Source of the DNA: Neolewinella agarilytica
GTDB taxonomy: Bacteria; Bacteroidota; Bacteroidia; Chitinophagales; Saprospiraceae
DNA length: 64,000 bases
Direction of reading: 5' to 3'
NCBI RefSeq assembly: GCF_900110645.1
Contig: NZ_FOFB01000011.1
Span: 1-64,000, forward strand
In this document: positions 6,814 through 25,500 of the stretch, piece after piece
Position numbering within the stretch: position 1 is the first letter of the stretch
Layout of the letters: each line of letters starts with the position of its first letter
The notes under the pieces: generated by a model
What the model was told of the DNA's origin: nothing
The model's input: the letters and a program-made list of their open reading frames with translations, nothing else
The model's database searches: none
Program-made: the position numbers and the translations under genes

Positions 6814-6870
6814 TTGTACCGCCGACTTCGGTCGGCGGGCCCCTTACGCCGACCGAAGTCGGCGGTACAA
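6814..6870. repeat. 24-bp perfect inverted repeat between nrdB and nrdA
   Basis: The arm at 6814-6837 is the exact reverse complement of 6847-6870, with a 9-nt loop. Each arm is itself nearly palindromic: CCGAC-TTCG-GTCGG in the left arm (a UUCG tetraloop in RNA) and CCGAC-CGAA-GTCGG in the right. The transcript can therefore fold as one long stem or as two short hairpins. It starts 2 bp after the nrdB stop and is followed within 10 bp by a copy of the 19-bp dispersed repeat. No T-run follows the right arm, so read-through into nrdA with mRNA stabilisation or attenuation is more likely than full termination. Confidence 0.85.
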
Positions 6871-6878
6871 CCATTCAT

Positions 6879-6897
6879 CGCACCTGCGGCCGCGCCC
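6879..6897 (+). repeat. Dispersed 19-bp repeat, copy 2
   Basis: CGCACCTGCGGCCGCGCCC, differing from the consensus TGCACCTGCGNCCGCGCCC only at the first base. It lies between the large nrdB-nrdA inverted repeat and the nrdA start codon at 6929. Confidence 0.75.
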
Positions 6898-6928: not shown

Positions 6929-9463
6929 ATGAAAGTTATCAAGCGCTCCGGACGTAAAGAAGACGTCTCCTTTGATAAAATCACCGCCCGCATTAAGAAA
7001 CTGTGTTACGGGCTGGACGAGAACTTCGTCGACCACATCAACGTAACCAAGAAGGTTATTCAGGGCCTCTATGACGGTGTAACTACCGTAGAGCTCGATA
7101 ACCTCGCTGCGGAAACGGCCGCCAGCATGAGTACTGTCCACCCGGACTACGCCCAGCTTGCTGCCCGCATCGCCATCTCTAATCTGCACAAGGAAACGGA
7201 CAAGAGCTTCTCCGCCACCATGGAGGGCCTCTATAATTACGTTGACCCCAAGACCGGCGCTGCCGCCGGTCTGATCGGCGACGATACAATGGCCGTCATC
7301 CGGGAGCACGCCGGAAAACTGGACGCTGCGATCATCTACGACCGCGATTTCGAATTCGATTACTTCGGCTACAAAACCCTCGAACGCAGCTACCTGCTGC
7401 GGATGGACGGTGCCGTAGTGGAGCGCCCGCAGCAAATGCTGATGCGCGTCTCCGTGGGTATCCACCAGGACGATATCGAGAGTGCGATCGAGACTTACCA
7501 GCTGATGAGCGAAAAGTGGTTCATTCACGCCACACCAACGCTGTTTAACTCGGGAACGCCTAAGCCACAGATGAGCTCCTGCTTCCTGCTGAGCATGACC
7601 GACGACAGCATCGAGGGGATCTTCGAAACCCTCCGCCGTTGTGCCCGCATCAGTCAGGCTGCCGGTGGTATTGGCCTCAGCATTCACAACGTTCGGGCTA
7701 CGGGCTCTTACATTAAGGGAACCGGCGGCACGTCCAACGGTATCGTCCCGATGCTGAAGGTGTTCAACGATACCGCCCGCTACGTAGACCAGGGCGGTGG
7801 CAAGCGCAAAGGCGCCTTCGCCGTTTACCTTGAACCCTGGCACGCCGATATCTTCGAGTTCCTCGAACTCAAGAAGAACCACGGTAAAGAAGAGATGCGC
7901 GCCCGCGACCTTTTCTATGCTTTATGGATGAACGACCTGTTCATGCAGCGCGTCAAAGATGACGCCGACTGGAGCCTCTTCGATCCCAACGAAGCCCCCG
8001 GACTGTTTGACGTGTATGGCGGTGAGTTTGAAGCACTCTACCACCAGTACGAAAAGGAAGGCCTGGCCCGTAAAACGGTTAAGGCGCAGGAGCTTTGGTT
8101 TGCCATTCTCGACAGCCAGATCGAAACCGGCACGCCTTACATCCTGTACAAGGACGCGGCCAATAAGAAATCCAATCAGCAGAATCTCGGTACCATCCGC
8201 AGTTCTAACCTCTGTACGGAAATTATGGAATACACCAGCCCCGATGAGGTGGCCGTGTGTAACCTGGCCAGTCTTGCGTTGCCTAAGTACGTGAAAGAAG
8301 ACGGTACCTACGACTTTGATCGCCTCGTGCAGGTAACCCGCGTGGCCACGCGGAACCTTAACAAGGTGATTGATCGTAACTACTACCCGATTGAGCAGGC
8401 GAAGAACTCCAACTTCAAGCACCGTCCGATCGGTCTTGGTGTTCAGGGCCTGGCGGATGCCTTCATTATGATGCGGATGCCCTTCGACTCTCCGGAGGCA
8501 CGGCAAATGAACAAGGACATCTTCGAAGCGATTTACTTCGCGGCCTGTACGGAATCCATCGAGCTGGCGAAGAAGGAAGGACATTACGAAAGCTACCCGG
8601 GCTCACCGGCCAGTAAGGGCGAACTGCAGTTCGACCTCTGGGGCGTAACGCCATCTGATCGTTGGGACTGGGCCGGACTGAAGAAAGACCTCGCCAAGCA
8701 CGGTATGCGCAACTCCCTGCTCGTAGCACCGATGCCGACGGCCTCCACCAGCCAGATCCTGGGCAATAACGAGTGTTTCGAGGCTTACAGCTCTAATATG
8801 TACACCCGCCGGACGCTCTCCGGAGAGTTCGTAGTGGTAAACAAGCACCTGCTGCGCGACCTCATCGGCCTCGGCTTGTGGGACAACAGCATGCGTAACC
8901 GCCTGATGGCCAGCAATGGCTCGATCGCTGATTTCGACGACGTACCGCAGCACCTCCGTGACCTCTACAAGACGGTCTGGGAGATCAGCCAGAAAGTCGT
9001 TATCGACATGGCCGCTGATCGGGGTGCCTTCATTTGCCAGAGCCAGAGTATGAACCTCTTCGTGGAGAACGTCAACTTCGGTAAGCTCTCCAGTATGCAC
9101 TTCTACGCCTGGAGCAAAGGCCTCAAGACGGGCATGTACTACCTCCGTACGAAGGCTGCACGGGATGCTATCCAATTCACCGTCGACAAGAACGCACTGC
9201 AGAAAGCAGGCGAGCAAGGGGACGGCGAAGTGAAAGCCAAGGTGCTGAAATCCGGCGCGGACGCAGGTGCAGGCAAGGGGACAAAGCAGCAAGGGAGTAA
9301 GGGCGCTGCCGCCGTTGCTACCGCTGAAATCCCCGCCGTCAAGTCAGAAGCCAAAGCTTCCCCCGCCGCCGGCGGTTTTGACGAGCTCAGCGCTGATCAG
9401 GTAGCCAATGTGGGCAAAGCTTGTAGTCTGGATGATCCGGATTGTATTGCTTGTAGCGCATAA
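6929..9463 (+). CDS. nrdA: Class Ia ribonucleotide reductase alpha subunit
   Basis: 844-residue catalytic subunit (R1). An N-terminal ATP cone (about residues 1-90) suggests dATP feedback inhibition. Active-site residues are visible: Cys218 (SSCFLLS), Asn427/Cys429/Glu431 (NLCTE), Cys444 ([11 protein letters not shown]), and the radical-transfer pair Tyr737-Tyr738. The C-terminus ends [10 protein letters not shown], whose Cys839/Cys842 re-reduce the active site. Between the core and this tail is a low-complexity linker (about 757-825) rich in Gly, Lys and Ala; its coding DNA contains one copy of the dispersed 19-bp repeat (9254-9271). The last 210 bp are almost duplicated at 14405-14612. Cotranscription with nrdB is likely, and a strong terminator follows. 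Confidence 0.96.
9254..9271 (-). repeat. Dispersed 19-bp repeat, copy 3 (inside nrdA)
   Basis: The reverse complement is TGCACCTGCGTCCGCGCC, identical to 18 bases of the consensus. On the coding strand it is read in frame as Ala-Asp-Ala-Gly-Ala-Gly within the NrdA linker. It is the left edge of the segment duplicated at 14405-14612. Confidence 0.8.
9254..9463 (+). repeat. Direct repeat of nrdA 3' end, left copy
   Basis: This part of nrdA, from the 19-bp repeat to the stop codon, has a close copy at 14405-14612. Identity begins exactly at GGCGCGGACGC in both copies: the flanking bases differ (TCC before the left copy, GAGT before the right). The two copies bracket the SusC/SusD pair. Confidence 0.85.
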
Positions 9464-9488
9464 ACACTGTCTGACAGCAGAAAACAGA

Positions 9489-9522
9489 AACCCCGGAGTC
9501 ATGAATGGCTTCGGGGTTTTTT
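9489..9522 (+). terminator. Intrinsic terminator after nrdA
   Basis: The arm AACCCCGGAGTC (9489-9500) pairs with GGCTTCGGGGTT (9507-9518) over 12 bp with two G-U pairs and a 6-nt loop, followed by TTTTTT (9517-9522). It sits 25 bp after the nrdA stop and should end the nrdBA transcript. Confidence 0.85.
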
Positions 9523-9831
9523 ATTTGGGGCTGGCCGCTGGAAATTAAGGGCTCTTTTTTGCGAAAAAACCGGAATGATGACGGCGGGATTAAGGGCTTG
9601 TTTTTGGGACTGTACGGTTAATCCAGTCAGGTAAAATTAATGAGTTTTCCAGATGTTTGTCAGGGCTTTTGTCTCTTTAAAATTGATGTTAACAAAATAA
9701 TTAGTGCTTTTTGTCACCCAAAAGGTTGTTTTGTTTCATGTGTCGAGCTGTATTGTATGGACATCTAAAATAAGATGATTTATTCATGCTTAGATTCCTA
9801 TATTGAAGTCTTTACCGAAAATCCATAGTAT
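9523..9831. other. Non-coding region upstream of susC
   Basis: 309 bp without a gene. ATTAAGGGCTCTTTTTT (about 9545) and ATTAAGGGCTTGTTTTT (about 9590) form an imperfect tandem word pair. TATATTG at 9799-9805 resembles a weak -7 element 27 bp before the susC start, but lacks the full TAnnTTTG match. The region becomes AT-rich toward susC, as expected for its promoter. Confidence 0.4.
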
Positions 9832-12800
9832 ATGAAACCGATACACTTGGGCAGGCTTATTGGCCTGCTTCTAATACTGTTCACCACCACCGCCAGCCTT
9901 TTGGCCCAACGGACCATCACCGGAACGGTGACGGGAGACAGTGGAGATCCTCTTATTGGCGTAAGCATTGTGGTGGCCGGGTCCGGCAGCGGTGCGGTTA
10001 CCGACTTTGACGGTAAATATTCCCTGACTGCCAACACCGGGGATAAGCTGATCTATTCCTACACCGGCTACGGAGGACAGGTGCGGACGGTTGGCTCTGA
10101 AAGCGTGATTAACGTTATTCTGGAAGCTGGTGCCTTGCTGGACGAAGTGGTGGTCACCGCCCTGGGCATCAGCCGTGAGCGCAAAGCCCTCGGCTACGCT
10201 GTCGAAGAACTCGGCGAAGAGCAGATCACCCAGCTGAAGCAGACCAACCTCGTTAATGCTCTGCAGGGGCAAGCGGCGGGCGTTCAGGTCTCCAGTGCAG
10301 GTGGTGGTCCCGGGCAGGCGGCCCGGATCATCATCCGGGGGATCAACTCTCTCGACCCCAATGCTGATAACCAGCCGCTCTTCGTGGTTGATGGTATCCC
10401 CATCACCAATGAGACCCTGACGGTAGGCGGAGGAGGCAGCCGGAACGTCTCTAACCGGGTGGCGGACATCAACCCCAACGACATCGAGTCGATGAACATC
10501 CTTAAAGGAGGCGCCGCCACGGCGCTTTACGGGCTGCGTGCCGCCAATGGCGCCGTCATCATCACCACCAAGCAGGGCAAATCCGGAAAACTAAGCATTG
10601 ATTATACCACGACCTACGGCACCGAGGAAGTCAATAAATTTCCCGAAACCCAAAAACAGTTTACCCAGGGCTTTGGTGGAAGCTACGACCCCGACAGCTT
10701 CTGGCCCAGCTGGGGGCCGACGGTAGAAGAGGCCCGGGCTGTTGACCCTGACCACCCCGAAGAGATTTTCAATAATTTTGAAAACGCCTTTACAACGGGC
10801 AACCAGTGGCGTAACACGCTCAGTATTTCCGGAGGCAACGATAAGGCGCAGTTTCGTACCGCCCTTTCTCATCTCGATCATGAAGGTGTACTGCCCTTTA
10901 GTACCTATACCAACACCAGCTTCCGGATCAATGCTAACTATAAAGCCTCGGAGAAATTCAGCTTCGGCGGAGGAGTCAACTACATCCGCAGTGGCGGTAA
11001 TCGGGTAAACGCTGACCGCTTTAATGAACGACTCGTTTATTGGGCTCCACAGGCTGATGTGAATGACTACATCGCTCCCGACGGCTCCATGCGCGGCTAT
11101 CGCCGCAACCAGACAGTGGGCAATAACCCCATTTACGGAGAGGCAACCAATAAATTCATCGACGACGTCGACCGCTATATTGGTAACCTGAAGTTTAGTT
11201 ATTCACCGACGGATTTCCTGACCATCAATTACATTCTCGGGCTCGACCAGTATTCTGATTTTCGGAAAAATTATGGGCAGGGACCGGTTTTTGACGGCGC
11301 GCCTAACTTTGAAAATAACGGCCTCGGCTTCGTAACCGAAACGGGCATACGCCGGCGGGACATAACCTCCAACATCAATGGTGTACTTACTCATCGGTTC
11401 AATGATGATCTGGGGGTACGCTTCCTGGCGGGCTTCGATGTTTTCGACTCCGAATACAACCGGGTAACCACCAGTGGAAGTGAACTGGACATTTTCGACC
11501 TCTTTATCCTGAACAACGCCGCGAACATCACCACCAGCAGCGCCCTTGTTCAGCGTCGCCTGTTGGGCCTCTACGGAGACCTTTCCTTTGATTATCTCAA
11601 CGCCATCTATCTTTCCATAACGGGGCGTAACGACTGGTCCAGCGCCCTGCCCGTTGAGAACCGCTCCTTTTTCTACCCCTCCGTCAGCCTTGGCATTGTG
11701 CTCTCTGATCTGGTGGATCTGCCCGAAGCGATCAGCTTCGCTAAGTTGCGGGCCTCCTACGCGGGTATTGGTAAGGACACAGACCCCTACCGGACGAGTG
11801 TCGTTTATGGTACCAACACTCCCATCGACGGAGTTACCCGCTGGACGCGGGGTAACCAGCAAGGCTCACCCGACCTTAAACCGGAACGCACCAATACTAT
11901 CGAGTTGGGAGCAGACATTCGCTTTGCGGATAACCGCATAGGGGTTGACTTTACCTACTATAACGCTAAAAGTGTTGATCAGATCATCCCCGTGCCAGTG
12001 TCTAATGCAACGGGCTTTACGACCTTTGTGCTTAACGCTGGATCCATGCGTAACCAGGGGGTGGAGCTGGGCATCCGGGCAACTCCGGTAAAAACGGAAA
12101 AATTGAACTGGGACGTCAACCTCAACTTCACGCGCAACCGCAATGAAGTACTGGAAATTTTTGAAGGCGTCGAGGATATTTTCCTGGGTAGTTCCTTCGG
12201 TTATGCCGGTTCCTCGGCAAGCATCCGTCTGGTGCCGGGGCAGCCCTACGGCAACCTGTACGGTACGAGCTATGCCCGCTTCGGAGCGGATGAGGAAAGT
12301 CTGTTCATTGACGAGAGCCTGCCCATCATCATCGGTGAGAATGGTTTCCCCGTTCGGGAAACCGAGCAGAAGATTCTTGGCAACACCCAGCCTAGTTGGT
12401 TTGGTGCCATCACCAATACCATCACCTACGAAGGCCTGAGCCTGTCGTTCATGTTCGACACCCGCCAGGGAGTGCAGAAATATAACCAGCAGGGGAATTT
12501 CTTTGCGGCCTTTGGCATTGCGCCCTACACGACGGACCGGAACGAGACGATTGTCTTCGAAGGTGTTCTTGCCGACGGTACTCCGAATACCAAACCTGTA
12601 TTCCTTGGGCAGGGCGAAGGTCCTGACGGAGAAAACTACGGAGCCGGTTACTACCGGAACACTTTCCGTGGAATCACGGAAAATTTCATTGAGGAGGCTG
12701 ACTGGATCCGTCTTCGCAACGTCAGCCTGAGCTACCAGCTGCCTGCCAGCTTGTTTGCGAACAACTTCGTTTCCGGGGCTAACGTAACCCTGACGGGGAA

Positions 12801-12939
12801 CAACCTCTGGCTCAGTACTCCCTTCAGCGGTTACGACCCTGAAGGCTCTCGCGGCAACCAGAACGGTGATGACGGTTTTGGGGGCTTCACTTACCCCAAC
12901 GTCCGCAGCTTCTTCTTTACCCTTAACCTCAACTTCTAA
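9832..12939 (+). CDS. SusC/RagA-family TonB-dependent outer membrane transporter
   Basis: 1035 residues, normal for SusC. A cleavable signal peptide ends near ALLAQ (about residue 26). A carboxypeptidase-regulatory-like domain follows (RTITGTVTGDSGDPLIGVSIVV, about 27-105), then the SusC junction LDEVVVTALGISRERKALGYAVEEL, a plug domain (GQAAGVQVSSAGG; RGINSLDPNADNQPLFVVDGIP) and a large beta-barrel ending in an aromatic residue (LNLNF). It should import a glycan, peptide or other large nutrient across the outer membrane, driven by TonB. SusD follows 11 bp later. No glycoside hydrolase, peptidase or sigma/anti-sigma gene is adjacent, so the substrate is unknown. The pair lies between two copies of the nrdA tail. 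Confidence 0.95.
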   Translation: MKPIHLGRLIGLLLILFTTTASLLAQRTITGTVTGDSGDPLIGVSIVVAGSGSGAVTDFDGKYSLTANTGDKLIYSYTGYGGQVRTVGSESVINVILEAGALLDEVVVTALGISRERKALGYAVEELGEEQITQLKQTNLVNALQGQAAGVQVSSAGGGPGQAARIIIRGINSLDPNADNQPLFVVDGIPITNETLTVGGGGSRNVSNRVADINPNDIESMNILKGGAATALYGLRAANGAVIITTKQGKSGKLSIDYTTTYGTEEVNKFPETQKQFTQGFGGSYDPDSFWPSWGPTVEEARAVDPDHPEEIFNNFENAFTTGNQWRNTLSISGGNDKAQFRTALSHLDHEGVLPFSTYTNTSFRINANYKASEKFSFGGGVNYIRSGGNRVNADRFNERLVYWAPQADVNDYIAPDGSMRGYRRNQTVGNNPIYGEATNKFIDDVDRYIGNLKFSYSPTDFLTINYILGLDQYSDFRKNYGQGPVFDGAPNFENNGLGFVTETGIRRRDITSNINGVLTHRFNDDLGVRFLAGFDVFDSEYNRVTTSGSELDIFDLFILNNAANITTSSALVQRRLLGLYGDLSFDYLNAIYLSITGRNDWSSALPVENRSFFYPSVSLGIVLSDLVDLPEAISFAKLRASYAGIGKDTDPYRTSVVYGTNTPIDGVTRWTRGNQQGSPDLKPERTNTIELGADIRFADNRIGVDFTYYNAKSVDQIIPVPVSNATGFTTFVLNAGSMRNQGVELGIRATPVKTEKLNWDVNLNFTRNRNEVLEIFEGVEDIFLGSSFGYAGSSASIRLVPGQPYGNLYGTSYARFGADEESLFIDESLPIIIGENGFPVRETEQKILGNTQPSWFGAITNTITYEGLSLSFMFDTRQGVQKYNQQGNFFAAFGIAPYTTDRNETIVFEGVLADGTPNTKPVFLGQGEGPDGENYGAGYYRNTFRGITENFIEEADWIRLRNVSLSYQLPASLFANNFVSGANVTLTGNNLWLSTPFSGYDPEGSRGNQNGDDGFGGFTYPNVRSFFFTLNLNF

Positions 12940-12950
12940 ACTCTACCCTG

Positions 12951-14372
12951 ATGAAACGGAATATCATTCGCTTCGCGCTCTGCGCCGGGGTCCTCTTCAC
13001 CGTATTTAGCTGCGGTGCCGATTACCTCGATATTAACGAAAACCCCAATGTTGCCACCCGTCCGCCATTGGACGGCCTGCTGGCTGAAGCCAGCTATAAC
13101 ACAGCCCTTAACCAGCAAAGAGTAAGTGGCAGCCACGCGGCCTTCTTCGTGCAGTACCTGGCTAGCCCAAATGAAGCCAACACGACCGATATCTACCTGG
13201 AAGTAAGCGGCAGTAGTGCCTGGAGCAACCTCTATAACACCATGACCAATGTCTATGACCTGATTCGTTTCGGCGAAGAAGACGGTGCGCAGGCTCACGT
13301 GGGTATCGGTAAGGTATTGATGGCCATCAATCTTGGTCTGGTAGTTGATAACTGGGGAAACGCTCCCTACACTGATGCATTTTCGGGGGAAACGCTGCGG
13401 CCAACCTATGACTCCGCAGAAGATCTCTACCAAACCATCTTCACCCTGTTGGATGAGGCGGAAAATGCCCTCGATGCCTTTGACGGTACGCCGCGCATTA
13501 AATCCGGCAGCGACTTTATTTTCGAAGTGACGGGGAATGATGACCTCGACCCCTGGCGCAAGACTATTTCCGCCCTGCGGGCACGGTACCTCAACCACTT
13601 GAGTGAAACGGGGCAGTACGATGCCGCAGCAGTATTGGCGGCGGTTGATGACTCTTTTACGAGTACGGACGATGATGCTGACCTGAAGACTTTCCTCGTG
13701 CGTAACCCCTGGGCGCAGGTAGCGGTCAACAACGATGCCCTGCTGCTCGGCGGCTGGCTCTCTGAGCAGTTCGTTGACGCACTGAACGGTACTACCTTCG
13801 GGGTAGCTGACCCGCGCCTGCCGCTACTGACTGACACGACCATCTTCGGAGACTACCGGGGTACACCTAACGGTGTCGGCAGAACGGGGGATGGTACTCA
13901 ACCGGATGAAACCTACCTGCAGTCGGATAAAGGGCCGGCGGCAGTGGATGCTTCCCTGGATATCATTACCTTCATGGAACTTAAGTTTATTGAGGCCGAA
14001 GCGGCACTGGCGACCGGAAGCCAGGAACGGGCAGACGCCGCTTTCCGCACCGGGATTCGCGCCAGCATGAACGAGTTAGGCGTTGCGGCTGATGCGATCG
14101 AGGCTTACCTTACGGATGCTTACGGCGAAGAGGACGAGGACATCGACCGGGACGATATCTTCCGGGAAAAATACGTAGCGCTGTTCCTGCACCCGGAAAC
14201 CTGGGTGGACGCCCGCCGATACGATTATGCCTACGAGGATTTCACCCTTGCGGCCAACGCCGCCATCGCTACTTTCCCCGCCAGACTGCAGTATCCCAAT
14301 ACTGAACTGGATCGCAACCGGGCCAATACTCCGACGGTAACACTGACGGACGCATTGTTCTGGGATCAGTAA
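12951..14372 (+). CDS. SusD/RagB-family nutrient-binding lipoprotein
   Basis: 473-residue outer membrane lipoprotein with signal peptide and Cys21 in FSCGADYLDINENPN, the usual SusD start. The sequence reads as the shorter SusD-like_2 type: an asparagine- and proline-rich N-terminus (NENPNVATRPPLDGLLAEASYN), TPR-like helices, and a conserved C-terminal stretch with EKYVALFLHPETWVDARRYDY. It would cap the SusC barrel as the substrate-binding lid. It is co-transcribed with susC and followed directly by the duplicated nrdA tail, so its downstream regulatory sequence has been changed by that event. Confidence 0.92.
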   Translation: MKRNIIRFALCAGVLFTVFSCGADYLDINENPNVATRPPLDGLLAEASYNTALNQQRVSGSHAAFFVQYLASPNEANTTDIYLEVSGSSAWSNLYNTMTNVYDLIRFGEEDGAQAHVGIGKVLMAINLGLVVDNWGNAPYTDAFSGETLRPTYDSAEDLYQTIFTLLDEAENALDAFDGTPRIKSGSDFIFEVTGNDDLDPWRKTISALRARYLNHLSETGQYDAAAVLAAVDDSFTSTDDDADLKTFLVRNPWAQVAVNNDALLLGGWLSEQFVDALNGTTFGVADPRLPLLTDTTIFGDYRGTPNGVGRTGDGTQPDETYLQSDKGPAAVDASLDIITFMELKFIEAEAALATGSQERADAAFRTGIRASMNELGVAADAIEAYLTDAYGEEDEDIDRDDIFREKYVALFLHPETWVDARRYDYAYEDFTLAANAAIATFPARLQYPNTELDRNRANTPTVTLTDALFWDQ

Positions 14373-14404
14373 CATTGACTCGCTGTAGCTGCGGTGTTTT
14401 GAGT

Positions 14405-14422
14405 GGCGCGGACGCAGGTGCA
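14405..14422 (-). repeat. Dispersed 19-bp repeat, copy 4
   Basis: Reverse complement TGCACCTGCGTCCGCGCC, identical to copy 3. It is the left edge of the duplicated nrdA tail after susD. Confidence 0.8.
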
Positions 14423-14612
14423 GGCAAGGGGACAAAGCAGCAAGGGTAAGTGTGCTGTCGCCGTTGCTGCCGCTGAAATCCCCGCCGCCAAGTCAGAAGC
14501 CAAAGCTTCCCCCGCCGCCGGCGGTTTTGACGAGTTCAGCGCTGATCAGGTAGCCAATGTAGGCAAAGCTTGTAGTCTGGATGATCCGGATTGTATTGCT
14601 TGCTCGGCGTAG
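14405..14612 (+). pseudogene. nrdA 3'-end remnant (duplicate of 9254-9463)
   Basis: A copy of the last 210 bp of nrdA with no rest of the gene. A 2-bp shortening near 14446 shifts the frame of the linker, but from about 14455 the frame matches NrdA and still encodes [20 protein letters not shown] and the CIACSA tail with a stop. A small open frame from 14403 exists but its start lies at the repeat and has no independent support. Several differences from the left copy are silent; the last four codons differ at 6 of 12 bases (TGT AGC GCA TAA against TGC TCG GCG TAG) yet encode the same residues. This suggests the copy descends from a once-functional nrdA allele rather than a recent simple duplication. 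Confidence 0.8.
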
Positions 14613-14989
14613 GTATTGCTGAACAGTGAGAGATAAACATGAGTTATCCCTGTTTTGGATGAGATGACTATGTTTTCTGGTAAATGATAAGATTTTTAGG
14701 GGTCAGCGGACAGTATTCAGGCAAAACGGCTCTGAATACTGTCCGCTGATCGCTTTTTATACCGCTCGAACCAGGTTTCATCCGAGAAAACACAGAAAAG
14801 GCTGCTCAAAATTCGGGATGACTCATGTTTTATTGGTCATAAAGCAACGTTGCAAGAGTGGAGAAAGGGTCTTCTTTTAAACCATGGCCTTCTTAACACC
14901 CGAAATGCATCAAAACACCTAAATTGAGTCATGAAGTCTACGTTTACGATGACTTTTACCCATTTTCTACCTACTTAGCTACCCATACC
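14613..14989. other. Non-coding region with terminator, before the histidine kinase
   Basis: Contains the strong hairpin terminator at 14703-14758 and otherwise no recognised element. No consensus TAnnTTTG promoter was found before the kinase gene. A TTG-initiated extension of the kinase frame from 14924 is possible but less likely than the GTG at 14990. Confidence 0.45.
14703..14758 (+). terminator. Perfect 18-bp hairpin terminator
   Basis: TCAGCGGACAGTATTCAG (14703-14720) is the exact reverse complement of 14732-14749, with an 11-nt loop, followed after TCGC by TTTTT (14754-14758). This is an unusually long perfect stem. It could end transcripts leaving susCD and the nrdA remnant. Confidence 0.8.
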
Positions 14990-16915
14990 GTGAAATCCTC
15001 TTACTGTCTTCTGGCTCTTTGCCTGCTAACCTTCCATTGCACCCGCGTCAGCGCCCAAAAGGCGAACTTTGAGATTTACCGGGACAGTATTTACCGAATC
15101 ATTGATACGGCCCGCAGCGAGAGTGAAAAATTTCTTCAGTACAGCCGTATTCACGATAAGTTGTCACCGAAGGACACCGCTCTCGTTTTGGCCTATCAGG
15201 ACACGATGAGGAGCTTTAAGGGGAAAGTGGACGATGATTTTTTTGAAGCCACCTACAACTTTCAGCTTGCGTGGACACTGCGCCTGCAACGGCGCTTCAC
15301 GGAGGCTCGCCCGGTTATCAAGAAAACCATTGAGGCCTATAAACGACTGGACAGCGTCAGGTTTGCCGCCTCCATCGGGCGGGCTCATCAGATGGGAACG
15401 ATTATTGGGCTGGCTACGCAGGATCTTGCCTTCGGGCACCGTCAGGCAACGCAGGCAATCGAAAAGTTTCGCAGCGTGACCGGGGAGGAAGATAATCTGG
15501 CCGGAACGCTGTCTAACCTTGGTTCTATTCTGATGCAGACTGGTCTGACTGAAGAGGCATTGTCTCCACTGCGGGAGTCAGAGCGGATGTACCGGAAGGC
15601 GAAGCGCCCTGACCGCTACTTTCACCCCGTATTGAATCAGGGCAATGCCCATAATACGATGGGGAACCGCGACAGTGCTGTTTATCACTACGAGCGTGCC
15701 CTGGCCGCTATTGATGAGCAAAGCCGGCCCAATCCCGGGCAAAGGGCTTTCGTGCAGACCAACCTGGGCACAGTGTATTTGCGGCAGGGCAAACTCGCTG
15801 ATGCGAGGGACCAACTTGAATCGGCCTCGATTACCTTTGAAAAGCTGGGGGCTAAACGAGAGTATGCCTCCGCTGCCGGGAACTTAATCGTTGTCTACAA
15901 CAAGCTGGGCGAACACCGGAAAGCACGGGACATCGGCCAGCAGGCACTGAACAGTGCCGCAAAATTTCCTGAGGTAAAGCGTAAAATTTTAGAGAGCCAG
16001 ATCACGACATTTATCAATTTACGGGAGCCGGATTCTACGCAGGCTTACCTCGATGCCTTCCTGAAGGCCACCAATGAGCGCAATGAAGCGCAACTGGAAA
16101 AATCGGTAGCCAATGCAGAAGCACAGTTTCAGAATGACCTGAAAGTAGCGGAAATAGAGCGGCTGGAGCTGGAGGACCAGGTGAGTCAGGACCGCATCAC
16201 CCGTCAAAAATGGTTACTTATCGGGGCGGCGCTCATTTTAGCCTTATTGAGCTTTCTTGCCTATGGGCTCTTTCGGCAGCGGCGGCGTATTGAAAAACAA
16301 AAAGATACGATTGCAAAGGCCCTGAAGGAAAAAGAAACCCTGCTGAAGGAAATTCATCATCGGGTGAAGAATAACCTGCAGATGGTGTCCAGTCTCCTCT
16401 CCCTGCAGGGAAGGTACCTCGAAGATGACGGCGCCAAAGCGGCCCTGAAAATGGGGAACAGCCGGGTGCGCAGTATGGCGCTCATTCACCAGAAGCTTTA
16501 TCTGACGGATGAAGTGAATACCCTGATCAATGCCCGGGATTATCTGGAAAAACTGGTAACCGAATTAGTGAAAAACCTGAAGCGTCCGGATTTGGAACTG
16601 GCTTTACTACTTGATGTGGAAGATACGGAGCTTGACATCGACCGGATGATCCCCCTCGGGCTTATCGTGAATGAATTAGTGACCAACGCACTTAAATACG
16701 CCTATGACGGGCGGGAAAGTGGTCGCCTCTCGATCAAGCTGCAGCCCGAAGGGGAGGGGCATTCACTAACGGTACAGGATGATGGAGTAGGTATGCCAGA
16801 GGAGAGTCGGACGAATTCCTTCGGCCTGCACCTGGTAGAAAGCTTAGTGGATCAACTGGGCGGTAAACTGCAGCGGCAGGAAGGTAAAGGGGCCGGGCTT
16901 GAGCTTAGCTTTTAG
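14990..16915 (+). CDS. TPR-containing sensor histidine kinase (HisKA_2 type)
   Basis: 641 residues if started at GTG 14990, which opens directly into a signal peptide (VKSSYCLLALCLL, then VSAQ). The periplasmic part carries TPR-like helical repeats (for example NLGSILMQTGLTEEALSPLRESE and NLGTVYLRQGKLADARDQLE). A transmembrane segment lies at WLLIGAALILALLSFLAYGLF (about 407-427), followed by a coiled linker. The kinase core starts with the HisKA_2 motif EIHHRVKNNLQ (histidines 456/457) and has an ATPase domain with GLIVNELVTNALKYAY, DDGVGMPEE and FGLHLVESL. Such kinases are PdtaS/LytS-like in layout. No response regulator is adjacent, so the partner is elsewhere. The stimulus is unknown. Confidence 0.88.
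   Translation: MKSSYCLLALCLLTFHCTRVSAQKANFEIYRDSIYRIIDTARSESEKFLQYSRIHDKLSPKDTALVLAYQDTMRSFKGKVDDDFFEATYNFQLAWTLRLQRRFTEARPVIKKTIEAYKRLDSVRFAASIGRAHQMGTIIGLATQDLAFGHRQATQAIEKFRSVTGEEDNLAGTLSNLGSILMQTGLTEEALSPLRESERMYRKAKRPDRYFHPVLNQGNAHNTMGNRDSAVYHYERALAAIDEQSRPNPGQRAFVQTNLGTVYLRQGKLADARDQLESASITFEKLGAKREYASAAGNLIVVYNKLGEHRKARDIGQQALNSAAKFPEVKRKILESQITTFINLREPDSTQAYLDAFLKATNERNEAQLEKSVANAEAQFQNDLKVAEIERLELEDQVSQDRITRQKWLLIGAALILALLSFLAYGLFRQRRRIEKQKDTIAKALKEKETLLKEIHHRVKNNLQMVSSLLSLQGRYLEDDGAKAALKMGNSRVRSMALIHQKLYLTDEVNTLINARDYLEKLVTELVKNLKRPDLELALLLDVEDTELDIDRMIPLGLIVNELVTNALKYAYDGRESGRLSIKLQPEGEGHSLTVQDDGVGMPEESRTNSFGLHLVESLVDQLGGKLQRQEGKGAGLELSF
15038..15056 (+). repeat. Weak variant of the dispersed repeat in the kinase signal-peptide region
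   Basis: TGCACCCGCGTCAGCGCCC matches the consensus at 17 of 19 positions. It encodes Cys-Thr-Arg-Val-Ser-Ala at the end of the kinase signal peptide, so it may be chance codon use rather than a true copy. Confidence 0.35.
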
Positions 16916-17125: not shown

Positions 17126-18007
17126 ATGATTATGGGATACGGAAAATGGTCTTCTGCCGAATATAAATCCTACCGTAGTAGCTATGCGGGAAAGAGTCGC
17201 GACGAAATCTTTACTTCCAACAAGCACCGTCGGATGGATCCGAAGCTGGACCCATTTCGGGTGGGGATGCGGGAGAGTCGGGACTCAGAGGAGCATCCGA
17301 ACAGCCTTGCTATCGGTGTTTTTCTGGACGTGACGGGCTCCATGGGGCACATTCCCCATGACCTGGTGGCCAATCAACTTGGTCTGATGATGGATACCAT
17401 TACGGAACACGGTGTAGCGGACCCTCAGCTGATGTTTTCTGCCGTTGGTGATCATCGCTGCGACAAGGCGCCTTTGCAGCTGGGGCAGTTTGAGTCGTCT
17501 ACCCAGTTAGTCAATGATGGTCTCAGCCGGCTCTTTCTGGAGGGCGGGGGAGGGGATGCCCCGGAGAGTTACCTGCTGGCCTGGCATGCTGCTGCCCGGC
17601 ACACCAGCATCGATTGCTGGGAGAAGCGCCGGCAGAAGGGCTTTTTATTTACGGTTGGTGATGACACCAGCCACAGCTCATTCGAAGGTCAGCTGCAGCA
17701 GAAGATCTTCGGCTATGACCGTGCTCAGACTTTGAGCGACCGCGAACTGCTGGCCGAGGCGCAAGAGCGCTACCATGTTTTCCACGTACACGTAGGCCGG
17801 AATAATGCCCAGGCGGGGAATGCCCGTGTACTGAACTACTGGCAACCGTTGCTGGGCAAACGATTCATCACGCTGAGCAACTACAAGCAGCTAGGAAAAC
17901 TGGTGGCCATGGTGGTAGCTATCGTTTCCGGTAGTCCGGTGGCGGAGGTAGTAGGCAAGGAAGATCCTGCACTTGGACGAGCGGTGTCAGAGGCGTTGAT
18001 TGTCTAA
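17126..18007 (+). CDS. VWA-domain protein, unknown function
   Basis: 293-residue soluble protein with no signal peptide. A von Willebrand A fold starts near residue 61: GVFLDVTGSMG carries the MIDAS motif as Asp68-x-Thr70-x-Ser72, and a glycine-rich GGGGDAPESYLLA segment and a GFLFTVGDDTSHSS strand follow. A VWA fold with an intact MIDAS usually binds a metal and a partner protein. The N-terminus (GKWSSAEYKSYRSSYAGKSRDEIF) is unlike any domain I know. It is transcribed from a dyad-flanked promoter and followed 123 bp later by a PurA-like gene on the same strand, so the two probably work together. The role is unknown. Confidence 0.8.
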   Translation: MIMGYGKWSSAEYKSYRSSYAGKSRDEIFTSNKHRRMDPKLDPFRVGMRESRDSEEHPNSLAIGVFLDVTGSMGHIPHDLVANQLGLMMDTITEHGVADPQLMFSAVGDHRCDKAPLQLGQFESSTQLVNDGLSRLFLEGGGGDAPESYLLAWHAAARHTSIDCWEKRRQKGFLFTVGDDTSHSSFEGQLQQKIFGYDRAQTLSDRELLAEAQERYHVFHVHVGRNNAQAGNARVLNYWQPLLGKRFITLSNYKQLGKLVAMVVAIVSGSPVAEVVGKEDPALGRAVSEALIV

Positions 18008-18085
18008 CGGGTTGCTAGCCGTCAGGACAGCCCTTCACCTGCCGGGAGTAGGGGTCGACGGCCTGGCCTTGCAAGCCTTTTGCTC

Positions 18086-18124
18086 TTTACTCCTTTCCCT
18101 TTACTCCCTTACCCCCTTTACTCC
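18086..18124 (+). repeat. Pyrimidine-rich direct repeats before the PurA-like gene
   Basis: TTTACTCC occurs at 18086-18093, 18100-18107 and 18117-18124 inside an almost pure pyrimidine stretch that runs up to the start codon at 18131. No Shine-Dalgarno is present. It may be a protein or ribosome S1 contact site, or simple-sequence drift. Confidence 0.5.
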
Positions 18125-18130
18125 CTTACT

Positions 18131-19303
18131 ATGCAAACCCACATCATTCTCGGCCTCGGTTTCGGTGACGAGGGCAAAGGCCTGACGACGGATTATCTCT
18201 GCCGCCAGTATGAGCGGCCATTAGTCGTTCGCTTTAGCGGCGGGCACCAGGCCGGGCATACGGTGGTTTGCCCGGATGGTCGCCGCCATGTGTTTAGCAA
18301 TTTTGGCGCCGGGACGCTGGCGGGTGCGCCGACCTTCTGGTCGGCCAACTGCACCTTCCATCCCGTTGGCTATGCCAACGAGCGGGAGGCATTGCGGGCA
18401 CTTGACGTAAGCCCTGAGTTCTACGTAGATGGATTAGCACCCGTTACCACACCCTATGATCTGCTGTATAACCGACAACTGGAAGCGGGACAAAAGCACG
18501 GTAGCTGTGGGCTGGGTTTCGGGGCTACCATTGCCCGCCATGAAGGGCCCCACAAGCTTCACGTGATGGACTTGCAGGACGATTTTGTGTTGGAGCAGAA
18601 ACTAACTTCCGTAGCGGCCTATTACCAGAAAAAACTCGGCGTGGTGTATGATGTCGCTATACTGAATCAGATGCTGGAGGATTTCTGGGCGGCCGTCGAT
18701 TATTGCCGCCCAACTTTTCATTGCACGAGTCCCGCAATACTGCGGGACGCCCACCTGAATCAAACCGCTGAAAGCTACGATGCGCTGATTTTCGAAGGAA
18801 GCCAGGGCTTGCTCCTTGATCAGGAATTTGGCTACTTCCCTCACGTTACCCGCGCCCACGTCAGCAGTCGTAATGCCCTTAAGTTGGTCCGGAAATTTCA
18901 CCTCCCTACCCCCGACATTTTTTACGTTACCCGTGCTTACCAAACCCGCCATGGTAACGGCCCCATGACGAATGAGTACCTAAAACCTTCTTTGGTCCCG
19001 ACCCCTGATGAAACGAATGTCTACAACCCCTGGCAGGGGCATCAGCGGCGCAGTTTACTGGATTTAGGGCAGCTTCGTTTCGCCCTGCAGGCGGATGAAC
19101 ACTATTCAGCAGGGTTATCCCGCAGCCTGATGGTTACCTGTCTTGACCAGTTGGATGGAAGTTGGTGGGTAACGGATGAAGAGGAGAAATTACAACTTGC
19201 CGGAATCAAAGATCTGGCGAATAAGTTAGGTGTAAATTGGGCGAGTTGCCTTGTCAGTTACGGCCCATCCGGAGAGAAAATCAGGAAGGGAATTCTGATA
19301 TGA
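18131..19303 (+). CDS. Divergent adenylosuccinate synthetase-like (PurA-like) protein
   Basis: 390 residues, shorter than housekeeping PurA (about 430). The GTP-binding start GLGFGDEGKG keeps the catalytic Asp13 and Lys16, and GGHQAGHTVV keeps His43, the match of E. coli His41. FEGSQGLLLDQEFGYFPHVT and VTCLDQLDG match PurA motifs. The loop that binds aspartate and the nucleotide differs: E. coli Thr300-Thr301-Gly-Arg303-Lys-Arg305 reads here Trp301-Gln302-Gly-His304-Gln-Arg306. GTP-dependent ligation chemistry is plausible but the acceptor or amino acid may differ from IMP and Asp. Phage PurZ is the other known branch, but it replaces the Asp13 kept here. A normal purA is expected elsewhere in the genome. 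ATG 18131 is preferred to an upstream frame start at 18080, which translates the pyrimidine tract. Confidence 0.75.
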   Translation: MQTHIILGLGFGDEGKGLTTDYLCRQYERPLVVRFSGGHQAGHTVVCPDGRRHVFSNFGAGTLAGAPTFWSANCTFHPVGYANEREALRALDVSPEFYVDGLAPVTTPYDLLYNRQLEAGQKHGSCGLGFGATIARHEGPHKLHVMDLQDDFVLEQKLTSVAAYYQKKLGVVYDVAILNQMLEDFWAAVDYCRPTFHCTSPAILRDAHLNQTAESYDALIFEGSQGLLLDQEFGYFPHVTRAHVSSRNALKLVRKFHLPTPDIFYVTRAYQTRHGNGPMTNEYLKPSLVPTPDETNVYNPWQGHQRRSLLDLGQLRFALQADEHYSAGLSRSLMVTCLDQLDGSWWVTDEEEKLQLAGIKDLANKLGVNWASCLVSYGPSGEKIRKGILI

Positions 19304-19513: not shown

Positions 19514-22500
19514 ATGTATTCTCTTCCAATTACAGGCCCTTCCATGTTTGGATGGGTTAGAACAGCGGTTATTTCTGCTTTCTCCTTACTTTTTTTGTTG
19601 ATTACCGTTAACACACTAAGTGCTGAAAATTCCAAAGGCTTGACGTCCGCGGGTTTTTCAGATTTACTGCCCGGTGCCTTGTTGACAGAGCAAAGTAAAC
19701 TTCAGCTTACGTACCGGACTCACCGCTTTGTTGCGTTGCCTGCGACCAGCTTGCTTTCACCAGATCCGGACCAATTACGGGTGCAGGATTTGCGCAACAT
19801 CGAGTGTTACGCTCAGCCCGACGCACTGGAGGTCTGCGGTGCGGGAGATACCATTCCGATTATGCTTTTCACTAAGTCTGTTCCTCCGTTGCAGGATATC
19901 CGGCTGGATGTGGTTTTTGAAGATGGCATTGAGTACGGTGGCTTTGCCTACGTAGACAACACGCTCGCAAATTCCGGAGCACAGTTGGATACCATCAGTA
20001 CTGAGAACCCCGAGTCCCCTTCTTTCCTGCTGGACCAGGTGAGTGAAGCAACGGGAGGAGTAATCGTTTATCTCGGTGTACGCGCAGAGTGTGGTGTTGA
20101 CTTTTCTATCAACAACCCGGATGTAACCATTAACTTCTCTTACACCAATGCCGATGGAGTAGCCTGTACGGGCTCCGTTACGCTGGAAGATTATGGTGGC
20201 AATGTTATTATCCCTAAGGTTGTGATTACGAATGACCCGCCAAACCTTAACCTGAACCGCCCCGGTAATATTCGTTGCCACTCCCTTGACGTCAGCCAGT
20301 CTACCATAAATGCCTCAGCGACGGGCTATATCTTTACGGCATCAAACTATGGCTTTGAGGAGGGAATCAGTATCGTCGAGGTGAGAAGAGCCGGTAATGT
20401 TCTGGCAGCTACTGATTATACTATAGATGCGGTCACGGGTGAAATGACCCTGACCGTGACAGATCCTACTGCTGATGGCTTTCTGGACTTCAACGAGATA
20501 GAAACGATCAATGTTTGTTACACTTATACAGAATGCTTCCCCAATGTAGACTTTACCCCGGTTTATACTGCGGTAAGTGCTTGTGACGGGGTATTTTGTA
20601 CCGGTCCCGTAGACCAGCGGAGTGCAGGAGAATTACGCTCTAATTTCCCGCAAAATCCCGCCTGGCAGGCAGAAATTGTGGGTGAGCAACTTCCTGATGT
20701 CTGTACCGGACAACCTTATGTGCTGGATATAGAGCTGGGTGCTGCGGGGGATCTGGAAATAACGGATCAGATGGAAAGCATCAACCTTTTCCTTCGTCGT
20801 TGTAAAAACCCTGGCTTATTTCTGGATACGGTAGCATTGGTATCGTTAGACGGTGCGACTATTTTGGGTGTTTTCGATGAATCTATCTACAGTGTGAGAG
20901 GCGAAGATCAGGTTACTGCCAGCACGGGTGTTCCTACGGCCAACCGTGCGGGAACCGTAACGCTGGATCTGCGCCAAAACGATTTGGTGAGTGGGGGCGG
21001 TCTAACCGATACAGATGGAGACGGCTTTTTTGATGATATGCCAGGCGATGAATCCATACGACTGCGATTTGTCTTTGGGGTAGCCTGTGCTTCAGATGAA
21101 TTAGCGTGTAATTCGGGGGCTAACCTTCCCGGAGGGCCTGATGCCGGGGCAGATTGCCAGTTCCGGGAAATTAGCCTTTCGGGGCGAACGGGTTGCGATA
21201 CCAGAAACAGGACGGCTACTTTACCCTTACTTAATTTACAAAATTTTGATGCAGAGAGTACTTCCGAGTATACTAATGAAGAGACGTTCACTTTTGGAGG
21301 TTCAATGTATAGTGGTTATGACTTTGGCGAAATCGGTCGGAGTACGATGGGTGGCCCGCTGAATGCAACTACCAAGCCAATTAATTTCAGTTATACGCTT
21401 GGAGATAATGACCTCTTCGCTTGTGATCCGGTAGGTACGGGAGTAGCTAAATTGGAGCTATTGATTACGGGTAATGAATACCTGCTCGATAATATGGAAT
21501 TCACGGACATCGCCTTTAACGGCATGACCGTCAGTCCGGGAAAGGTTACTGTAGCGCGTCCGATGACCGGAGAGCTACTCTTTACCGTCGATACGGGTAG
21601 TGTCATGTCAGGAGTCCCCTTTGACTACGATTTTAGTGTTACACTGGATACGCCACGTTGTGCACCTCCTGCACTGCTTTTTGTAGACGCCTTTTTAACG
21701 ACTCAATGTGCAGACGGCTGTGATTGTGCGCCCGTTCGAACGTGTACCTCAACAACTTTTACCGTTGACCCGGATAGCCTGGGTTGTGTTTGTGAGTACA
21801 CTATTTCCACCTTCGTAAAGCGAGTCAACACAAATTTTGAGGATGAAACCAGGACTACCGAAGTGGACCCGGAAACTATTTCACAACAGGATATTCGCCG
21901 GTTCGTATCGGGTGATACCCTTGAAATTCTTTATCAATTAACCGTTGAACCGGGGGCTGATCCCGATTTTAATGAGTCTAATGAATTCCTTGATTTTCGT
22001 ACGGACCTTAGGGTGACAGGGGGCGCTTCTGCAACCTCCCAGAACTTTCAGGCCATGTTTGATCTTCAAACGGCACGTGTGCAATCCTTTACGATTAACC
22101 GGAAAGATGGAACGGAAATTGATGTTGGAGCGAGTATTAGCGGAGATATTAATGTAGGTGCTTCTGGCGTTTTGATAAACTCGGGAGGTGATAATACCTT
22201 TGGTTACGGTATTAACGAGCCGGAAATGGCAGGGCTCCCCAATGGAGGGTATACATTCGGTACGGGTAATTCATCAAATGATGATCTGGATGGTCGGTTG
22301 TTAAGATTGCAAGTCAATAATCTTAATGGACAACCGGATGCCAATACGCCATTCTTTGATTTGGTAGGGGGAAGGTTTATTGGTGAGGATACCATAAACA
22401 TCGTTTGGCATGTTGTGTTAGTTGATAATCCTTCCTGGAACGGAATGGTTTCCACAATGTCGCTCACCGGATTGGTTGACAGCCGAGGATACATCGGGGA

Positions 22501-25500
22501 CCCTGCGGATAATGTGATTTATAATACTGATGGCAACCAATGTTCCCCAACCTCTGAACCTTTTCAATATGCCGATCCAATGGTTGAAGGGAGCTCAAGG
22601 ATCGAGTATACGGACGATTGCGAGGCTACATTGGTAGTTAGCTATGACGTTACGGGGATTCCCTCCGATTGGTATACCAATGAGTACCGGCTTGTGGCTG
22701 GTATTGAAGAGTTCGACATCAATTTTCCTGAGCCCTACTATTACGCAGGAGGAGCTACGGTTGAAACCGGAGGCCTTAGCCCTGTTCCGGTAGAGCCCAC
22801 TGGATCCAGTAATGTGGATACCGCAACCGTTAACGGCCAGCAGGTCTTGTTCCCGAATGGAACGGGCATCCTGAGCTTCGTTGACGCAGAAAAAGCCGAT
22901 GGTGTCCGTCCTGATGGTTATGCAGGATACGGAGGCCCCGATGAAGCACTGAGTGATGTAATCACGGTAGGAGGCACTTACCCCTTGTTGGGCTTCATGG
23001 GAGGGGCTGAGGACTCGTTGGTATTCCGTATTCCACTGGTACGGGGGTGTTCTGCTGAAGCAACAAGCGGAGGAGGGCTAAGCCTGAACTTTGATGCCGC
23101 TAATCTTCACCTTCCAGATTTATTTTCGAATGGTACTTTCCAAACAAGTGGATCTGCAAGTGTCGATGGGGAGGTGTTGGATAACGACGGAAACGTTGTT
23201 CAGGCAAGACGTGAAAGTGATGGCGCTGTATCGGATCCTCCGGTTACTGGTTCCAGATTCTATCCCTTCCTGCGCCTCGAAGATAGCCCACAGTTCCTGC
23301 CGGGTTTCCCGATTAACCGCGAACGACGCATTAATAATGTAGTCGCCGTTACGGAAACCGGTGCCCGCCCCACAGAGATCGTTTCTGCTGCTTCCGTTGG
23401 TATGGACTTCCTCACCGACGATATGGGGACAGAGACAAATACTTACATGCTGTGCCCGGATGGTGGCGAAATTCTCCCCGGCGGCGCCCTCAGCATTGAG
23501 CTGTCCAACAGTGTAGAGCTCCTCTCTATCTCCGGAGATGCAACTTCTTTCAGTATTGCTTCTGCTACAGATTCAAGCATTTTTTACGCGGTCGAAATTC
23601 CCGCCGAAAACGTGGCTGATGATTGTTTCGAAATCACACTTACAACCGACCTGCTATTCTGTGATGCAGGTATGGTTTGCATGACGCCGATCCTGGGCTG
23701 CCCTGGTAGCCAGATTGATATTACACAGCAGGTGAATGTTTATAAAGAATTCATGCTTGAATGCTCACCTGCAGTATGCTATGAGTATCGGGGTGGAACT
23801 ACTGAGGTGGACATCTCCTTCAATCTGCCCACACAGTCAGATCTGTGCTCAGATCAAACTTATAGCATATTGTACGTAAATAACGGCTCGGGCTCGTTAT
23901 CTGACTTACAACCCGTTATTCAGATACCTACTGGATTGGATGTAGACTTCAGCTCCTTTGAAATTACGTTGATCGGAGGAGGCACGATGGCCCTTTCTCC
24001 ACCGGTGGCGAACCCAGACAGCAATACGATCTACGGTAGTGGATACGTCTTTGATCAGACGGAAATTGATGCGTTCCTCTCTCCGAATGAGTTTGAAGTG
24101 GGCGATATCATCGAAATTACCTTCGATGCGGCAACCAGCTGTGACTTCATCAACGGCACCCCGCTCGCTGCGAGGTTGAATGCCGCTGATGCCTGCCAGC
24201 AACCTCAGTACATCATGGATACTACCTCTGATCCCATCAGAGTAGCGACTCCGGATGTTCCGGAGCCTCTCTTTGAGCTGGACCTGCCAGAACTGATTCA
24301 GGTAAGCTGTAGTGAGTCGGGAACAGAACTGCTGATTACAACGCTGAATGTCGGTAAAGCCCCCACGACAGAACTCGAAGTAATGTTTACCCTCCCCGCT
24401 GGCTTCTCTCTGGAAGCAGATGATGTGGTAGTAGTAGCCCCTTCCGATTTCGTTATTGACGATATCGTAGAGGAAGACCTCGGTGGTGGGGTGACTATGT
24501 ACAGCTTTACCGGTCCGGAAAGTATCGCTATTGGCGGTGCGCTATGTGTCAAAGTAATGCTCAACGTCGATGGCATAGACTGTGGTGTTTACCAACTTAG
24601 TGCCGGTTTCAAACAGGCAACGGCACCGCTGACCTGTCCTACAACTATGGAGACCTGCACGCTGGCCTCGTTACTATCTGAAAGCAGCATCTTCGATGTA
24701 GAGGTAGTTCCGACGGTGACCCTTGGTACCGACAACGAGATTACCGCAGATTGTGGCCCGACACCAGGTACTTTCAACATCGCTTACGACTTGGAAATTG
24801 TGGCTCCAAGTGCTGCTTACACCGGCCCCGCGGCCGTAGAGCTTTACCGGGACGCTAATGCAAACGGAACGTATGAGCCAGGAACGGATCAGCAGCTGGG
24901 AACAACGATGAACATCAACGTTGCGATAGACAGCGGTGAGGTGGCTTCCATCAGCGGAATGTTTAATGAAATTGACGTGCTTGACGTATGTCCTGTACTG
25001 ATTAGATTTACGGTGCCCGGTTGTGCCTGTGGCGAGTCGGTGCTTTCCGTAATGGACATCCTGCCCACCTTCCTCAATGACTTGGGAGAATCCGTGGCAC
25101 TTTGCCCCGGTGAAGAAGGAATGTTAACGGGAATCTGCGCTCCCCTGGATTACAGCTTTAATCCCGTTACTGCAGGTACCGTCACGGATAACGGAGATGG
25201 TACGGTGAGCTTCAGCCTTAATGATGGGTTTACCGAAGCCATCCTTCAGGTGGGGGGTACCTTCGGAGTCTGTCCGGTAGATGTTAGCATTCCGGTCATC
25301 TCTAACGATCCGTTCGAATTCGGTCCCTACACTGCAGAGGTATGTAATGAAGGCGCTCAGGAAATTGATTTTAATATTCCGCCAGCATTACAGGAAGATC
25401 TCGAAATCCTGATCCTCCCTTCCATTGGACTGGACGATCCGACGAGCTTCGAACCGACTATTTCCGATCTGCAGGCCGATCAGGTATACACCGTTCAGTT

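Follow-up and report, generated by a model that had tools for sequence, protein, structure and literature searches.

A SusC/SusD gene pair between two copies of the nrdA 3′ end, joined at a dispersed repeat, in Neolewinella agarilytica

Introduction

At integration sites, the 3′ end of a core gene may be duplicated, with a remnant left on the far side of the inserted block. Duplications that border on repeats are also described for pneumococcal transformation, where repeat-mediated unequal recombination forms merodiploids; in that study, the repeats are kilobase-scale remnants of insertion sequences and the duplications span approximately 100 to 900 kb (Johnston et al. 2013, PMC3784515). Among short repeats found within genes, the REP and Rickettsia palindromic elements are palindromic and tagged by GTAG or CGTC, and many are reported in replication and repair genes (Di Nocera et al. 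2013, PMC3733652).

Here, we describe a locus of Neolewinella agarilytica in which the 3′ end of nrdA recurs behind a susC/susD pair, genes of nutrient uptake. The analysis covers the window, i.e., the whole 64,000-nucleotide stretch at the start of contig NZ_FOFB01000011.1, and 20 other genomes of the genus (G numbers are our genome handles).

Results

Layout of the locus

The features of the locus are listed below (window coordinates, strand, description).

6929 to 9463, +, nrdA, ribonucleotide reductase large subunit; intact open frame of 844 aa (TIGR02506, 724.8 bits; cut-off, 341)
9254 to 9463, +, copy 1 of the nrdA tail: the functional linker and Cys tail, in frame in the 844-aa NrdA
9254 to 9295, +, dispersed repeat copy encoding 14 residues in frame in the C-terminal linker of NrdA; core, GGCGCGGNCGCAGGTGCA
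9464 to 9831, +, nrdA-susC spacer with a terminator-like hairpin
9832 to 12939, +, susC, SusC/RagA TonB-linked outer-membrane receptor of 1035 aa (TIGR04056, 636 bits; cut-off, 368)
12951 to 14372, +, gene for a SusD-like lipoprotein of 473 aa (PF12771, 164.9 bits)
14405 to 14446, +, dispersed repeat copy 3′ of susD, identical to 9254 to 9295; left junction of copy 2
14405 to 14612, +, copy 2: nrdA tail pseudogene with a 2-bp deletion and its own synonymous last codons and stop
14634 to 14828, +, MITE-like dispersed element of ∼195 bp (ends approximate), directly 3′ of copy 2
14924 to 16915, +, TPR/HisKA_2 histidine kinase, for which no close genus relative was found
17126 to 19303, +, two genes, for a 293-aa protein of unknown family (o17126) and an adenylosuccinate-synthetase-like protein (o18080), also paired downstream of nrdA in Lewinella sp. 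W8

The gap between susD and the second repeat copy is 32 bases. Between the two tail copies, susC and susD are the only open reading frames of at least 300 aa, no integrase gene was recognized, and an Rfam search over positions 9200 to 15000 gave no match. The nrdA-susC spacer weakly resembles DNA 3′ of the N. persica nrdA (71% over 87 bp, 24 bp of it coding; E, 0.018). Between nrdB and nrdA, two 24-nt arms of a mismatch-free inverted repeat enclose a 9-nt loop (6814 to 6870), beside a further repeat-like word (6876 to 6895).

The MITE-like element has 13 other near-full copies in the genome, 12 at 84 to 93% identity and a 13th at 78%. Terminal inverted repeats (AACATGAGTCATCCC/GGGATGAGCCATGTT) stand at the ends of most of the 10 aligned copies and, together with the many copies, are what is expected of a MITE. 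The element contains a strong inner hairpin followed by T's, and no target-site duplication is evident by eye in the copy alignment.

Two copies of the nrdA tail

The window was searched for direct repeats of at least 40 nt with 14-nt seeds. Only two families were found, both of which are the nrdA tail pair: one of 42 nt at 100% identity (9254 to 9295 and 14405 to 14446) and one of 157 nt at 96% (9297 to 9453 and 14446 to 14602). Copy 2 was also recovered in a search of the organism's own genome (E, 4.2e-87). The earlier note had reported, from the letters of the DNA, that the nrdA tail recurs after susD at 14405 to 14612, so that direct repeats bracket the pair, and that identity starts exactly at the dispersed repeat in both copies and runs to the stop codon. 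The repeat search and a base-by-base comparison confirm the duplication and show that, in each copy, identity begins with base 1 of the repeat core, but high identity ends at 14602, 10 bp short of the stop. Up to that point (9254 to 9453 against 14405 to 14602), the copies differ by 7 substitutions, located between 9302 and 9412, and by the 2-bp deletion (9296 to 9297), from which copy 2, lacking the gene body, is out of frame. The last stretch (9454 to 9463) adds 6 further substitutions.

With 13 substitutions, a deletion, and distinct unique flanks separating the copies, the assembly duplication that the earlier note had offered as a refutation is unlikely, and although the genome is a draft of 74 contigs, an assembly artefact or a collapsed tandem deserves hardly any credence.

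The final 12 bp read TGTAGCGCATAA in copy 1 and TGCTCGGCGTAG in copy 2. They differ at 6 of 12 sites, and all six substitutions, the change of serine AGC to TCG among them, keep Cys-Ser-Ala-stop, which random DNA would encode at the end of copy 2 with a probability of ∼1.3e-4. Because the changes preserve these codons against such odds, copy 2 is read as the genuine 3′ end of another nrdA allele. Judged by its sequence, it is a complete, frameshifted nrdA end. This observation bears on an explanation in which nothing was inserted: susCD already stood beside nrdA, and a strand broken at the repeat 3′ of susD invaded the nrdA copy of this repeat, from which ∼200 bp of the tail was then copied, by one-ended gene conversion or break-induced copying. 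The junction exactly at the repeat and the near-identity of the copies over 198 bp fit such copying, as does the position of susCD within 42 to 63 kb of nrdA, on the same strand, in clade-2 relatives (described below). Copying predicts unrelated sequence at the end of the tract, whereas another nrdA end with its own equivalent codons is found there, and we regard this explanation as possible but unlikely.

Pairwise comparison of the same positions among 19 relatives gave 171 pairs. In the last 12 bp, the median is 3 differences (range, 0 to 6), with 11 of the 171 pairs at 6; in the 60 bp before them, the median is 17 (range, 4 to 34), and none of the 171 pairs has one difference or fewer. Copies 1 and 2 differ at a single site in those 60 bp. 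Set against these between-species pairs, 1/60 followed by 6/12 means that the copies resemble one lineage up to 14602 and two species after it. The contrast between 6/12 and 7/198 gives a Fisher P of 1.2e-5, with a boundary that was picked after the data had been seen. The sharp step at the edge of homology could also be accounted for by an old tail duplication between diverged alleles that was later homogenized by gene conversion from copy 1, leaving the edge unconverted. The unconverted state leaves no direct trace, no relative has a second tail, and the proposal is a variant of the exchange that we favor (see Discussion) rather than a separate event; it seems to us distinctly unlikely. By eye, the relatives polarize two of the interior substitutions (9339 and 9386), and in both of these, as in the 2-bp deletion, copy 2 carries the derived state; the remaining five fall in linker that does not align or at positions variable among the relatives.

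Distribution of the arrangement among relatives

An nrdA match was present in 19 of the 20 genus relatives, the exception being a 55% complete genome (G009). A second nrdA tail was found in 0/20, and in a protein search of 40 genomes, only N. agarilytica gave a second match to the tail alone (residues 787 to 844). The two tails could in principle form a working device, in which direct repeats allow the reversible pop-out of susCD: they are ∼200 bp long, 96% identical, and 5.15 kb apart, and a crossover to the right of the deletion would yield an intact nrdA. The relatives lack the second copy, no recombinase is tied to the locus, and copy 2 is decaying, all of which make such a device extremely improbable.

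No susC ortholog stands beside nrdA in any of the 19 relatives, in the downstream DNA examined (short in G007, 224 bp; G001, 1.5 kb; and G002, 2.1 kb). Lewinella sp. W8 (G015), which has nrdA and lacks susCD, provides a comparison of gene order. There, the genes behind nrdA are, in order, two AhpC/thioredoxin-like genes, o25997, a Gfo/Idh oxidoreductase gene, o17126, o18080, a TPR protein gene, EF-Tu, and rpoB; in N. agarilytica, nrdA is followed by susCD, copy 2, the kinase, o17126, o18080, o19514, o25997, a stretch from ∼28 to 69 kb without counterpart in the W8 region, and the TPR/EF-Tu/rpoB block. Since W8 shares the o17126-o18080 pair and the EF-Tu/rpoB block, the genes behind copy 2 look like native neighbors, and by this comparison susCD and one of the tails look added. 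The interval is variable in any case, as the AhpC/thioredoxin-like genes, o25997, and the oxidoreductase gene between nrdA and o17126 in W8 indicate; o17126 occurs in 7/21 genomes and lies near nrdA in 2 of those 7.

The earlier note had proposed looking in sister genomes for an uninterrupted nrdA with the histidine kinase next behind it. That check was negative, the kinase having only 33 to 44% matches elsewhere in the genus. In W8, susCD is absent, but other genes occupy its place, and neither an exact empty site nor a donor gene order was found among the relatives examined.

Several further features were seen. Positions 19514 to 25870 encode an uncharacterized 2118-aa protein with no NCBIfam match; in N. 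aurantiaca (G014), two homologues of this protein (27% and 55%) are encoded immediately downstream of nrdA. A low-GC block starting with a NusG-like gene (27892 to 63544) is possibly a polysaccharide cluster, a name that we infer; several homologues of this block lie behind nrdA in N. antarctica (G019). The G002 nrdA is split by an intein-type insert (L201, 3975 to 5222) with a LAGLIDADG domain and an intein splicing domain that scores below its cut-off, and that of G011 is probably split by an intein-type insert at a different site (L200, 1831 to 2906).

Ancestry of the susC/susD pair

Orthologs of susC were found in eight relatives. In five of them (G001, G003, G006, G017, and G020), the pair shares the strand of nrdA and lies 42 to 63 kb downstream of it; in the other three (G008, G011, and G019), the pair is on contigs other than that of nrdA. 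In G011, susD is cut by the contig end. A distant SusC paralogue (27 to 28% identity), not an ortholog, lies on the opposite strand ∼2.2 kb downstream of nrdA in G003, G012, and G016.

In the susC tree, from which G017 was left out and for which the program warned of long outgroup branches, the N. agarilytica sequence groups with that of G019 (support, 97/95) and the six clade-2 sequences group together (99/97). The DNA tree of the nrdA body places N. agarilytica with G007, G014, and G002 (98/96), joins this group to G018, G004, G005, G013, and G019 (84/94), and sets apart a nine-member clade 2 (100/99). The two trees agree on the split of the genus. By the nrdA tree, susCD is absent from the nearest relatives (G002, G007, and G014). 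Given the trees and this distribution, the pair was most likely already in the genus before the split and was then repeatedly lost. A native pair also agrees with the composition of susC (GC, 0.545; GC3, 0.65), which is within the range of the window's other genes.

The ancestry of susCD bears on the idea that a segment from outside the genus brought the pair together with its own nrdA tail. The absence of the pair from the nearest relatives would fit, as would the last 21 bp of copy 2, which are identical to those of one of the 19 relatives (G011, of clade 2), with a 93% match over 27 bp across the stop (E, 0.005). Both stretches are too short to name G011 as the donor of the end. The susC tree, in which the sequence groups with G019 and tracks the species split, already weakens a foreign origin; GC and GC3 are ordinary for the window, and the inserted genes show no sign of alien ancestry by tree or composition. 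A plasmid origin was rejected, as megablast gave no plasmid match. We consider a foreign segment very unlikely. Of what the earlier note had suggested, a segment bringing or displacing an nrdA tail is supported in outline, because susCD and nrdA are adjacent in 0/19 relatives and the W8 order lacks the pair; its description as foreign is not supported, given the susC tree, the eight relatives with the pair, and GC and GC3. Recombination at the repeat, its other suggestion, gains support from the junction at the repeat edge and from the completeness of the nrdA 3′ end in copy 2, whose synonymous codons are its own.

The dispersed repeat

The N. agarilytica genome contains 364 exact copies of the 18-mer GGCGCGGNCGCAGGTGCA, compared with 0 for the reversed control. 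Counts are 205 to 559 in eight genomes (G000, G002, G004, G005, G007, G009, G014, and G018) and 0 to 78 in the other thirteen of the genus. A limited first search with the repeat and tail DNA in 19 genomes outside the genus gave no match, and no description of such a repeat in this genus was found in the titles and abstract openings that literature searches listed. A consensus of 93 sites shows the core followed by a weaker tail to about +40.

The repeat occupies the same place in the nrdA of several relatives, where it was located by DNA match in G005, G007, and G014 and by eye in the others. It reads GADAGA in G002, G007, G014, and G018; in G005, G020, and G008, a different frame is used, giving GARTQV or GARAQV. 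In a sample of sites, 40/60 lie within open frames of at least 150 codons, compared with 541/600 random positions; the repeat is therefore rarer in open frames than expected and prefers spacers. Intragenic copies often occur, in several reading frames.

Five copies fold no better than shuffled sequence (z, −0.87 to +0.80), and the repeat is not palindromic. A Y1 transposase was considered as its mover and rejected: Y1_Tnp matches occur in 20/21 genomes and do not follow the repeat numbers (350 copies and 0 Y1_Tnp in G018; 22 copies and 6 Y1_Tnp in G013).

Flanks were compared at 93 distinct sites of the 364 (from contig C24, 60 stretches, and search matches). Of the 13 flank-to-flank matches listed, the nrdA pair alone begins at the edge of the repeat. 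With an adjoining flank duplicated at only 1/93 sites, general flank duplication at repeats was rejected, and the repeat does not drive such events in general. In relatives, the 1.3 kb downstream of susD held no repeat core in 5/6 stretches; in the sixth (G008), a core-like word lies 42 bp 3′ of susD, inside an apparent lipoprotein signal region.

Discussion

We lean, if only slightly, toward an exchange in which recombination set an nrdA end and susCD, of within-genus origin, against the resident nrdA. The right-hand crossover would lie in the dispersed repeat, and the resident tail would be left stranded as a pseudogene. Two versions of the interval, probably from the same or closely related lineages, would have met. 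The first would have carried nrdA, the terminator, susC, susD, and the dispersed repeat, and the resident one nrdA followed by the present downstream genes. The crossover would have linked the repeat copy 3′ of susD with the one inside the resident nrdA, placing susCD directly behind a complete nrdA and cutting off the resident 3′ end from the repeat onward. The stranded end, copy 2, would be a promoterless pseudogene that was later frameshifted. A single event of this kind would account for the junction, the adjacency, and both ends.

We infer this crossover, the donor, direction, and age of the event, and the reason for the near-identity of the first 198 bp. The latter may reflect close relatedness of the alleles, bridging by a sister chromosome, or later gene conversion that stopped short of the last bases; bridging, as modeled for pneumococcal transformation (PMC3784515), or such conversion would explain the likeness. 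Counting against the exchange are the lack of a donor order and of an exact empty site among the relatives, as well as the post hoc choice of the 12-bp boundary. Because susCD is missing from G002, G007, and G014, its loss and regain are possible; because five clade-2 genomes carry it downstream of nrdA on the same strand, it may also be long resident in the interval.

The locus is most likely a single recombination scar of a known kind, an ordinary rearrangement bordered by a repeat of some interest. More unusual is the repeat family itself, which is partly intragenic and is read in frame in nrdA. A more speculative proposal, which we offer tentatively and think unlikely to hold as a whole, is that the repeat belongs to a family not yet described, which has expanded in one Neolewinella branch both between and within genes, provides an essential enzyme with a linker read in frame, and at times serves as a crossover point at which strains exchange the 3′ ends of genes together with the accessory genes that follow. 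The locus shows how recombination can land on a 42-bp dispersed repeat within an essential gene and leave the gene intact, and how a stranded gene end records a past meeting of two alleles; it also points to a high-copy, partly intragenic repeat family.

As at integration sites that keep a remnant, the nrdA 3′ end is duplicated beyond the intervening block, here susCD; unlike at such sites, no integrase gene was recognized between the copies. The repeat resembles the elements described in PMC3733652 in being short, high-copy, and dispersed between and inside genes, in some cases in frame, and differs from them in folding no better than shuffled sequence and in being untied to a transposase. 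REP elements are recognized by a palindromic hairpin and by an abundance that tracks a RAYT-type Y1 transposase, and the repeat shows neither. The locus does have the marks of repeat-mediated partial gene duplication, namely, the repeat at both junctions and the unduplicated state in relatives. Compared with the pneumococcal merodiploids of PMC3784515, its scale is far smaller, with a 42-bp repeat and ∼0.2 kb duplicated rather than kilobase-scale repeats and ∼100 to 900 kb. The likeness would lie in the mechanism: short repeats pair wrongly, and a donor fragment leaves behind a duplication bordered by the repeat.
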